Positions 1 through 7,698 of a DNA stretch of 64,000 bases are shown in pieces. Below the pieces are notes generated by a model. It made no database searches. It was not told the DNA's origin and saw nothing but the letters and a program-made list of their open reading frames with translations. The stretch is from assembly GCA_029263115.1 (NCBI GenBank), contig JAJCYC010000032.1, positions 1 to 64,000 of the forward strand. Reading direction: 5' to 3'. The DNA comes from Pseudonocardia sp. (GTDB lineage: Bacteria; Actinomycetota; Actinomycetes; Mycobacteriales; Pseudonocardiaceae). Within the stretch, counting starts at the first letter, position 1. The number at the start of each line of letters is the position of its first letter. The position numbers and the translations under genes were made by a program.

Positions 1-501
1 CGGCACGGCCTGCCGCCGCACCCCGGGCCGCCGATCACCGGAGTGCCCGCCGAGGACGGCCTGCGCGCCTGGCGCACCCTGCGCGACGCGATCGCCGACC
101 TGCCCGAGCCGCTCGGCGACAAGCTGGAGCACCCGGACTGGATCCACCACGTGGGTTGGCCGGGCGCCCGCAGCTACCCCGGGCACACCCCGAACACACT
201 GGACCGGCCGGCCAAGACGGTCAAGGCCGGGGTGCACGGGGTGCCCGGCGGGGAGAGCGTGCTGCGCCGCGACGACGGCTCGATCCGCTACCTCACCGTC
301 CGCGAGGTCGCCCGGATCATGACCTTCCCGGACCACTGGCGGCTGGCCGGCCCGCGCGGAGAGCAGATGCGCCAGCTGGGCAACGCGGTCCCGGTGCGGC
401 TCGGCCGGGTGATGGCCGACGCGGTGCGCAACGCCCTGCGCGACACCCCGGTGCCGGGCCGCGTGGCGACCGCCGTTGCGGAGTCCGCCGTCGCGCGTTA
501 G
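1..501 (+). CDS. DNA (cytosine-5-)-methyltransferase, C-terminal part (5' end outside window)
   Basis: C-terminal Dcm-type motifs RYLTVREVARIMTFPDHW and QLGNAVPV; frame open to window start. Confidence 0.85.
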   Translation, partial: RHGLPPHPGPPITGVPAEDGLRAWRTLRDAIADLPEPLGDKLEHPDWIHHVGWPGARSYPGHTPNTLDRPAKTVKAGVHGVPGGESVLRRDDGSIRYLTVREVARIMTFPDHWRLAGPRGEQMRQLGNAVPVRLGRVMADAVRNALRDTPVPGRVATAVAESAVAR

Positions 502-2217: not shown

Positions 2218-2742
2218 ATGACCTCACGAACCCGGCCCGCCGCGCGTCCTCATGGTGTGAGACGCCGACCGTTCGACGAGATCGTGACCGAGTTCGGTCC
2301 GGTGGTGCTGCGGGTGTGCCGCGCGGCACTGGGCTCGGGCTGGAACGACGGGGCCGCCGACGACGCCTGGTCGGAGACCTTCCTGGCCGCGCTCAAGGCC
2401 TACCCGGAACTGCCGGCCGACGTCGACATGCAGGCCTGGCTGGTACGGGTGGCACACCGCAAGGCGATCGACCAGCACCGGGCCCGGGCCCGCCGCCCGG
2501 TGCCCACCGACGAGCTGCCGGATCGGCCGCCCGACCCGGCCCCCGACCACCGGGACCTGTGGCGGGAGGTGGCCACGCTGCCGAAGAAGCAGCGGTTCGC
2601 GGTGGCCTACCACTACCTCGCCGGGCTGCGGTACGCGCAGGTCGCGGAGCTACTGGGCAACACCGAGGCCGCCGCGCGGCGGGCCGGCGCCGACGGGGTG
2701 GCCGCGCTGCGCCGCCGACTGGTCATGACGGAGGAGCGATGA
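2218..2742 (+). CDS. ECF-type RNA polymerase sigma factor
   Basis: sigma-70 region 2 (AWLVRVAHRKAIDQHRAR) and region 4 (LPKKQRFAVAYHYLAGLRYAQVAELLG). Confidence 0.8.
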   Translation: MTSRTRPAARPHGVRRRPFDEIVTEFGPVVLRVCRAALGSGWNDGAADDAWSETFLAALKAYPELPADVDMQAWLVRVAHRKAIDQHRARARRPVPTDELPDRPPDPAPDHRDLWREVATLPKKQRFAVAYHYLAGLRYAQVAELLGNTEAAARRAGADGVAALRRRLVMTEER

Positions 2743-3440
2743 ACGGAATCAACGAACTGTCCGCGCTGCTGTACGGGGCGGGACCGGACCTCGACACGGC
2801 GACCGACGGGACGCCGGCCGCTGACGACCGGAACCCGCGCGGTCCGGCAGGGACCGCCCCGGACGAGTCGCCGACCGACGCCACCGTGCCGCGCGCGCTG
2901 CGCGACCGGCTGGCCGCCGAGGCCCAGCGCGACGGGCTGCTCGACATCGCCTACCGCACGCTCGACTCGCCGGTCGGGTCGCTGCTGCTCGCGGCGACCG
3001 ATCAGGGGCTGGTGCGGGTGGCGTTCGCGGTCGAGGGCCACGACAGCGTGCTGGCCGGGCTCGCCAACACCGTCAGCCCACGGATCCTGGCCGCGCCGAC
3101 CCGGCTGGACGCCGCCGCCCGCGAGGTGGACGAGTACTTCGCCGGCCGGCGCACCCGGTTCGGGCTGGCGCTGGACTACCGGCTGGCCAGCGGCTTCCGC
3201 CGCGAGGTGATCATGCGGCTGGTCGACATCGGCTACGGCCGCACCGCCAGCTACGCCGAGCTCGCGGCCGCTGCCGGCAACCCGAAGGCGGTCCGCGCGG
3301 TCGGCACCGCGTGCGCCCGAAACCCGCTGCCGATCGTGCTGCCCTGTCACCGCGTGGTGCGCAGCGACGGCAGCCCGGGCGGCTACCTGGGCGGGCCGGA
3401 CGCCAAGCGGGCGCTGCTCGCCCTCGAGGCGAGCTCGTGA
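2739..3440 (+). CDS. ogt: methylated-DNA--[protein]-cysteine S-methyltransferase with ~60-aa N-terminal extension
   Basis: active-site IVLPCHRVVRSDGSPGGYLGG; ATGA overlap with upstream sigma gene. Confidence 0.88.
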   Translation: MNGINELSALLYGAGPDLDTATDGTPAADDRNPRGPAGTAPDESPTDATVPRALRDRLAAEAQRDGLLDIAYRTLDSPVGSLLLAATDQGLVRVAFAVEGHDSVLAGLANTVSPRILAAPTRLDAAAREVDEYFAGRRTRFGLALDYRLASGFRREVIMRLVDIGYGRTASYAELAAAAGNPKAVRAVGTACARNPLPIVLPCHRVVRSDGSPGGYLGGPDAKRALLALEASS

Positions 3441-4186
3441 GTGGCGAGTGCGGCTATGCCGGCACCCGCCACGCACAGGTACTGGCCCGCGCCGACTGGG
3501 CGCGGGTGCACAGCGAGCTGGACGAGTTCGGCTGCGGGTCGGTGGGCCGGGTGCTGGAGCCGGAGCAGTGTCGGGAGCTGGCCGCGCTGTTCGACCAGCC
3601 GGAGCTGTTCCGCTCCACGGTGGACATGGCCCGCCACCGCTACGGCCGCGGGGTCTACCGGTACTTCGCCCACCCGCTTCCGCCGCTGGTCACCGCGCTA
3701 CGCGCGGAGTGCTACCGTGGGCTGCTGCCGCTGGCCCGGGACTGGGCGGCGCGGCTGGGTCGGCCGGCGCAGTGGCCGGACACCCTCGACGAGTGGCTGG
3801 CGCAGTGCCACCGGGCCGGCCAGACCCGCCCCACGCCGCTGCTGCTGAGCTACGCCGCGGGCGACTGGAACGCGCTGCACCGCGACCTCTACGGCGAGCT
3901 GGTGTTCCCGCTGCAGGTGGTGATCTGCCTGGACCAGCCGGGCCCGCCCGAGCTGGGCGGAGACCACACCGGCGGCGAGTTCCTGCTGGTCGAGCAGCGG
4001 CCGAGGGCGCAGTCGAAGGGCATCGTGCGAGCCCTCGGTCGCGGCGAGGCGCTGGTGTTCACCACCCGGGACCGGCCGGTGCGCTCGGCGCGGGGCTGGT
4101 CGGCGGCCCCGGTGCGGCACGGGGTGAGCACCCTGCTGTCCGGCCGCCGACGCACCCTCGGTCTGGTCCTGCACGACGCGGCGTGA
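3437..4186 (+). CDS. 2OG-Fe(II) oxygenase family protein
   Basis: YAAGDWNALHRDLYGELVFPLQVVICL ... GGEFLLVEQRPRAQSKG ... RHGVSTLLSGRRRTLGLVLHDA; GTGA overlap with ogt. Confidence 0.8.
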   Translation: MSGECGYAGTRHAQVLARADWARVHSELDEFGCGSVGRVLEPEQCRELAALFDQPELFRSTVDMARHRYGRGVYRYFAHPLPPLVTALRAECYRGLLPLARDWAARLGRPAQWPDTLDEWLAQCHRAGQTRPTPLLLSYAAGDWNALHRDLYGELVFPLQVVICLDQPGPPELGGDHTGGEFLLVEQRPRAQSKGIVRALGRGEALVFTTRDRPVRSARGWSAAPVRHGVSTLLSGRRRTLGLVLHDAA

Positions 4187-6590: not shown

Positions 6591-7698
6591 TCACCGCGCG
6601 TCGGCCCGCCGGGCCCGATCGAGCGCCCGCGTCTCGTCCGCCGGGTCGGGTCGCAGCAGGGAACCGGGTGCCGGCGCACCGCCGGCGCCGAGCTGGTTCA
6701 TCCGCTTGGGTACCGGGGCACACTGGCAGGCGAGCGGAACCGGGTGCCCGTTGCGGCCGAGGCCGGCAAGCCGCTGGTGCACCTCGACGAACTCGCCGTG
6801 CGGCAACCGTTTAATGATCCCGGTCTCCACACCGTGCTCCAGCACCGCCCGGTCGCCGCGCTGCAGGCCGAGACAGAGCCGGTAGGTGAGCCAGTAGGCC
6901 AGCGGCGGCAGCAGGAGCAGCCCGATCCGTCCGGCCCAGATGGTCGCGTTGATGGACAGGTCGAACACGTAGGCGAAGATGTCGTTGCCGGACGCGATCA
7001 GCAGCCAGGTGTAGCGCGAGCAGGATGCCCGGCAGCAGCAGCACGTGCACGATGTAGAGCTGCGGGATGATCTCGGTACCCGGGAACTCCCCGCCGAACA
7101 GGGCCCAGTGCGTCCAGGTCCCCACCACCGGCACGGACAGGGTGATCCCCGACCCGATCCGCAGCCCGGTCCCGGACAGCAGGTCGTCGGCCAGCGAGTA
7201 GCCGCTGAACCCCTCGAAGGTGCCGACCAGCAGCAGGACGCCGAGCAGCCAGTTGGACTCGCCGGGCTTGCGGAATGCTCCGGTGAAGAACGTCCGGAGC
7301 ATGTGCACCATCATCGAGGCGATGAACAGCAGCGCCGCCCAGTGGTGCAACTGCCGCATGAACAGCCCGCCCCGGACCTCGAACGAGATGTCCAGCGTGG
7401 TCTCGTAGGCCCGGGTCATCTCCACCCCGCGCAGGTTGGCGAACGCGCCGTCGTAGACGACGTCCTCCATCGAGGGGTCGAAGAACAGTGCCAGGTACAC
7501 GCCGGTGAGCAGCAGGATCACGAAGCTGTAGAGCGCGATCTCGCCCAGCATGAACGACCAGTGCGTCGGGAACACCTTGTTGAACTGGCGACGCAGCCCG
7601 GCCGCCGGGTGGAAGCGCTGGTCCAGCTCGTCCAGGCCGGCGGCGGCCCTGGACCGTCCGGCGCCCGACGATCTGGTCGGCGTGGTGAGCGAACTCAT
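6591..7698 (-). pseudogene. qcrB: cytochrome bc1 cytochrome b subunit (QcrB-like), internally deleted and out of frame
   Basis: N-terminal part ([24 protein letters not shown]...LHHWAALLF...[16 protein letters not shown]) is followed directly, in another frame, by a C-terminal part ([45 protein letters not shown]). Confidence 0.8.

Follow-up and report, generated by a model that had tools for sequence, protein, structure and literature searches.

ECF122, a group of sigma factors from Casas-Pastor et al. 2021, is summarised in a 2022 review (PMC8999054) as having no anti-sigma factor, 6-O-methylguanine DNA methyltransferases in its neighbourhood and an unknown mechanism, and the review's summary gives no mechanism, promoter or regulon for the group. 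With ECF122 the association of sigma factor and methyltransferase is already known; the promoter, regulon, link between an N-terminal helix and the sigma factor, and shared losses reported here were not found in the literature searched. We have analysed a window of 64,000 nucleotides from Pseudonocardia sp. (contig JAJCYC010000032.1) that contains such an association. The window sigma factor very probably belongs to ECF122, as compared with the published description of the group rather than with its reference sequences (e.g. WP_057211282.1): it has the ECF architecture (sigma regions 2 and 4), its conserved neighbourhood includes an O6-methylguanine DNA methyltransferase, and it comes from Actinomycetota. 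In the neighbourhoods scanned, those of the window and of a few relatives, no anti-sigma gene was found.

The locus also resembles Ada, in that a suicide methyltransferase domain is connected with the transcription of genes for alkylation repair (ogt, alkB, glycosylase), the co-regulation of these genes being predicted from promoters in relatives. It differs in that the window Ogt contains only PF02870 and PF01035, with neither the Ada zinc domain nor an AraC-type DNA-binding domain, and in that transcription here proceeds via a separate sigma factor; PF02805, the Ada zinc domain, is absent from the window's own genome. Ada is somewhat rarer in genomes carrying the present system, 7 of 55 versus 60 of 242, a difference (p = 0.07, uncorrected for relatedness) too weak for mutual exclusion of the two systems to be retained. 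With ECF sigma/anti-sigma pairs the locus shares gene order, translational coupling and a partner that would hold the sigma factor until a signal arrives. In contrast to those pairs, the partner is an enzyme without a known anti-sigma domain, the Ogt matching no anti-sigma family in Pfam at E ≤ 1, and the proposed signal is covalent and irreversible. In fold and catalytic residues the linked Ogt is similar to canonical Ogts such as M. tuberculosis Ogt (4bhb), which together with E. coli Ada-C provides its nearest solved structures, and the PCHR active site, Tyr, Arg finger, Asn and Glu of Ogt/MGMT suicide methyltransferases are all present. The canonical Ogts of the regulon described below differ, however, having no N-terminal helix and being 35-40% identical to the linked Ogt.

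Organization and occurrence of the sigma-ogt operon

Three consecutive genes on the + strand of the window encode an ECF sigma factor, an Ogt-type methyltransferase and a 2OG-Fe(II) oxygenase, downstream of an alpha/beta hydrolase gene ending at 2203 (Table 1). The sigma and Ogt genes overlap by ATGA at 2739-2742 and the Ogt and oxygenase genes by GTGA at 3437-3440, so that the gene order and junctions given in the initial annotation are present as described, and Ogt does occupy the slot in which an anti-sigma factor is usually encoded. Pfam matches are to Sigma70_r2 (4e-10) and Sigma70_r4_2 (7e-8) for the sigma factor, PF02870 (Methyltransf_1N, 6e-10) and PF01035 (DNA_binding_1, 7e-30) for Ogt and PF09859 (1e-74) for the oxygenase. 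The sigma start had previously been placed at ATG 2218, a position that is probably wrong and is rejected here because it lies in the conserved promoter, whose elements are at 2223-2227 and 2245-2248. GTG 2257 is the probable start, as it aligns with the starts of relatives and agrees with the promoter position; because it lies at about the expected transcription start, the sigma mRNA is probably leaderless.

Table 1. Features of the sigma-ogt-oxygenase operon, in window coordinates
Feature	Position	Strand	Basis
-35 element CTCACG of the predicted sigma-specific promoter	2223..2228	+	Conserved at fixed spacing in linked operons
-10 element CGTC	2245..2248	+	17 nt after CTCAC; conserved with the -35 element
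ECF sigma factor, 161 aa	2257..2742	+	Pfam sigma regions 2 and 4; alignment of relatives; promoter position; start at GTG 2257 probable
Sigma-linked Ogt, 233 aa, active-site PCHR	2739..3440	+	Pfam; alignments; nearest folds Ada-C and M. tuberculosis Ogt
Ogt residues 1-50, predicted disordered tail with weak helix at residues 4-11	2739..2888	+	AlphaFold pLDDT about 50; variable in relatives
Ogt residues 52-64, N-terminal helix tied to sigma linkage	2892..2930	+	pLDDT above 90; counts in linked and unlinked Ogts
Cys203 codon, methyl acceptor	3345..3347	+	Invariant in 68 linked sequences; kept wherever readable in the larger set
2OG-Fe(II) oxygenase PF09859 (Oxygenase-NA), 249 aa	3437..4186	+	250 bits; ligands invariant; unlinked relatives with the same promoter

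The catalytic core of the linked Ogt is conserved, with Cys203, His204, Arg205, Arg186, Asn195, Tyr172 and Glu230 invariant in 68 linked sequences and PCHR present in 110 of the 112 linked Ogts of a larger set. In the two remaining cases, one sequence (L043) reads ACHR, retaining the cysteine, and the match to the other (L093) ends early. Given this conservation, the linked Ogt should be active as a suicide methyltransferase. The iron and 2OG ligands of the oxygenase, H148, D150, H228 and R238, are likewise invariant in six sequences. Elsewhere in the window, inspection by eye indicated that 43-501 (+) is likely the C-terminal part of a C5-cytosine DNA methyltransferase truncated where the contig begins, and that a QcrB-like cytochrome b frame at 6591-7698 (-) is seemingly broken, with its N-terminal part in one frame, its C-terminal end in another and the middle missing.

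The arrangement is not confined to the window. A sigma gene lies directly upstream in every one of the 22 close relatives (59-74% identity) among 28 loci fetched by similarity to the window Ogt. Regions fetched after surveying 297 genomes from the phylum and 395 from the class yielded 130 Ogt loci of this family after thinning, 112 with sigma directly upstream and 95 of these 112 with the exact 4-nt overlap; the 18 loci without sigma include one (L068) in which the contig end alone explains its absence. In hold-out loci from the window's own family sigma is upstream in 19 of 19, a count that includes L208, whose locus has sigma, Ogt and oxygenase in that order. Thus, the proportions in the 130 family loci and in these 19 further loci argue that the arrangement is not due to chance, and sigma and Ogt are an old, widespread pair. 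This Ogt is found in 24 of 121 genomes of the window's own family but is absent from all four other congeners sampled. The searches covered Actinomycetota, with the exception of the similarity fetch for the window Ogt, whose non-actinobacterial matches are canonical Ogts without this sigma factor.

Ogt is the sole gene always coupled to sigma, the third gene varying between loci, and genomes without sigma at the Ogt locus contain no clear copy of this sigma factor elsewhere. A direct comparison is provided by two loci of the same genus, L041 (G140), with the order ogt-ogt, and L182 (G556), with the order ogt-sigma-ogt; L041 lacks only sigma, the helix being retained, and is a recent sigma loss. 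One genome (G262) carries two sigma-linked Ogt pairs (L045, L067). No natural sigma-Ogt fusion was found, the sole candidate (L160) being a sigma gene read in two frames.

Predicted promoter and regulon

Sequence upstream of sigma in relatives contains the consensus CTCAC(A/G), 16 nt, CGT(C/T), or CTCACR-N16-CGTY, which is predicted to be the promoter recognised by the linked sigma factor. A looser search detected it in 64 of 76 loci, where shuffled sequence gave 2.3 on average, and the spacing between CTCAC and CGTY was exactly 17 nt in 60 of 68 of these matches. Of 111 linked operons, 96 carry the element before sigma or before a canonical ogt next to it, and none of the 18 sigma-less ogt loci of the family has it (Fisher test, 2e-13); random windows of the same loci contain it in 2% of cases. 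In the hold-out loci it is directly upstream in 15 of the 18 scored, and in the remaining three a canonical ogt stands before sigma. Promoter and sigma gene are lost together.

The strict form of the promoter gave 30 matches in 20 genomes versus 1 for the reversed control. In addition to sigma operons it precedes canonical ogt genes (Rhodococcus, Streptomyces L018, L038) and, elsewhere in the genome, PF09859-type oxygenase genes at L111, L114, L122 and L132, assigned by Pfam for the first three, with the start codon 5 nt downstream of the promoter at all four. Since unlinked PF09859 genes carry the same promoter, the window oxygenase is a regulon member in its own right. In Arthrobacter (L012) a single promoter is followed by ogt, sigma, linked ogt, AlkB-type oxygenase and Tag-type glycosylase genes. 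An alkylation-repair regulon under the CTCACR-N16-CGTY promoter is thus well supported at the sequence level, and the sigma factor very likely runs an alkylation-repair programme. The alkylation response proposed in the initial annotation is supported by this promoter prediction, through the shared element on canonical ogt and PF09859 oxygenase genes and through alkB and tag in relatives. In many genomes the regulon includes a canonical Ogt in addition to the linked one, indicating that the latter is not there for capacity only.

In the window's own genome two further promoter sites were detected, neither before a sensible target, and no site is present near the canonical ogt locus (L029); the regulon may here consist of this operon alone. 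A search of deep-branching lineages returned 18 matches versus 3 in the control, of which, apart from the sigma sites, most look like chance and were set aside.

The N-terminal region of the linked Ogt

Sixty-nine residues precede the first core strand of the window Ogt, so that the extension of about 60 residues described initially is roughly right in length. AlphaFold predicts residues 1-50 to be disordered and residues 52-64 to form a confident helix ahead of the core. The extension had been expected to be conserved only in sigma-linked Ogts. This holds for the helix, which was scored with a cross-validated position matrix and is present in 106 of 112 linked versus 2 of 17 unlinked Ogts (Fisher test, 4e-13). 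It does not hold for a 60-residue unit, and a conserved domain of this size was rejected, as both length (28 to 70 residues among relatives) and sequence vary; the only recurring parts are the helix of about 13 residues and a degenerate N-terminal hydrophobic motif. The motif lies ahead of the helix in 46 of 81 sequences versus 19.5 in shuffles, with a pattern chosen after looking. At one locus (L001:3857-3990) the tail ahead of the linked Ogt's helix and core contains ELARDLARTFPAAPGE two times in tandem, which gives the impression of a duplicated short binding motif.

A FastTree phylogeny of the enzyme core, in which many forks are weak, places sigma-less Ogts in the midst of linked ones and shows at least 7 changes on its supported branches. 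Among 7 independent pairs, the helix follows sigma in an average of 4.7 and runs counter to it in none; the number of pairs limits the sign test (p = 0.06). The helix has been lost repeatedly, at separate positions in the tree (L078, L086/L088, L178, L184, L186), and most linked relatives near these Ogts keep it; six sigma-less sequences form one clade. The helix thus tends to be lost along with sigma. The association is not absolute, the helix being kept without a neighbouring sigma in L181 and replaced in one linked clade (L077, L085, L087) by a different extension (RPPRL...DV-Y). An analysis of sigma-Ogt coupling in 108 pairs, underpowered at an effective number of 79 for 350 columns, gave a top pair that touches the helix and is indistinguishable from noise.

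Proposed regulation by the linked Ogt and alternative explanations

The sigma and Ogt genes are retained and lost jointly, a pattern suggestive of damage sensing by the repair enzyme itself. An autoregulated ECF sigma factor needs a brake, and the one irreversible change open to Ogt is methylation of Cys203, which occurs on meeting the damage that the regulon repairs. Because Ogt is always coupled to sigma, a brake is needed, a second canonical Ogt is present in the regulon and methylation takes place on damage, Ogt is the candidate regulator of the sigma factor, and an anti-sigma factor released by self-methylation is the simplest model. We consider it somewhat probable that the operon constitutes an autoregulated alkylation-damage response in which the sigma factor drives the regulon and the coupled Ogt is a brake released by methylation. 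The sigma factor would recognise CTCACR-N16-CGTY before its own operon and, in relatives, would also drive canonical ogt and the PF09859 oxygenase, with alkB and tag added in some genomes. The translationally coupled Ogt would be its regulator, unmethylated Ogt holding sigma inactive via the N-terminal helix and tail. Transfer of a methyl group from DNA onto Cys203 would cause Ogt to let sigma go, repair capacity would thus track the number of lesions repaired, and new unmethylated Ogt made from the same operon would bring back the off state. In this scheme we infer physical contact between sigma and Ogt, the direction of control and methylation as the signal. That a suicide methyltransferase serves as the anti-sigma factor, freeing an ECF sigma factor upon lesion repair such that sensor, repair and switch are one irreversible event, is in our estimate evenly balanced.

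A positive switch resembling that of Ada, in which unmethylated Ogt is neutral and methylated Ogt is a co-activator of sigma or of the holoenzyme, is just as compatible with the data on linkage, helix and promoter. E. coli Ada acts in this positive sense and the core of the linked Ogt is closest in fold to Ada-C; an autoregulated ECF sigma factor devoid of a brake would, however, be expected to remain on, and as ECF sigma factors are as a rule held by inhibitors, we regard co-activation as improbable. Ogt could instead be only the first output gene, sigma being controlled otherwise, through transcription of its own gene, through proteolysis or through an unlinked factor, with the gene overlap matching expression levels. 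In agreement with this possibility, the third gene likewise serves as an output, and the review (PMC8999054) lists ECF122 among groups of unknown mechanism. It offers no account, however, of the N-terminal helix lost along with sigma, of near-universal coupling while the third gene varies, or of the second canonical Ogt kept in the regulon, and we consider it unlikely, if conceivable.

Alternatively, the helix, a high-confidence prediction adjacent to the core, might belong to the architecture of this Ogt subfamily and have nothing to do with sigma binding, in which case ancestry or decay would account for its absence from the sigma-less genes. The single clade formed by six sigma-less sequences is consistent with this, whereas recurrence of the loss at separate places in the tree, near linked relatives that mostly have the helix, is not, and a purely structural role appears very unlikely. 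If release of sigma by methylated Ogt is correct, bacteria have arrived at an adaptive response to alkylation at least twice, through Ada and through a sigma factor, and the role of anti-sigma factor can be filled by a repair enzyme whose one-shot trigger is covalent. For ECF122, the promoter, regulon and sigma-tied helix predicted here make the mechanism accessible to a concrete, cheap test. Co-regulation also ties the poorly studied PF09859 oxygenases, for which no treatment was found in the literature searched, to alkylation repair.

Weak matches to Ada_Zn_binding (PF02805) were observed in three other genomes (G038:C1:2812790-2812939, G198:C21:59407-59562 and G293:C74:3241-3393), each immediately following the sigma-linked ogt or the oxygenase gene that accompanies it, and perhaps represent a further small protein of the system.
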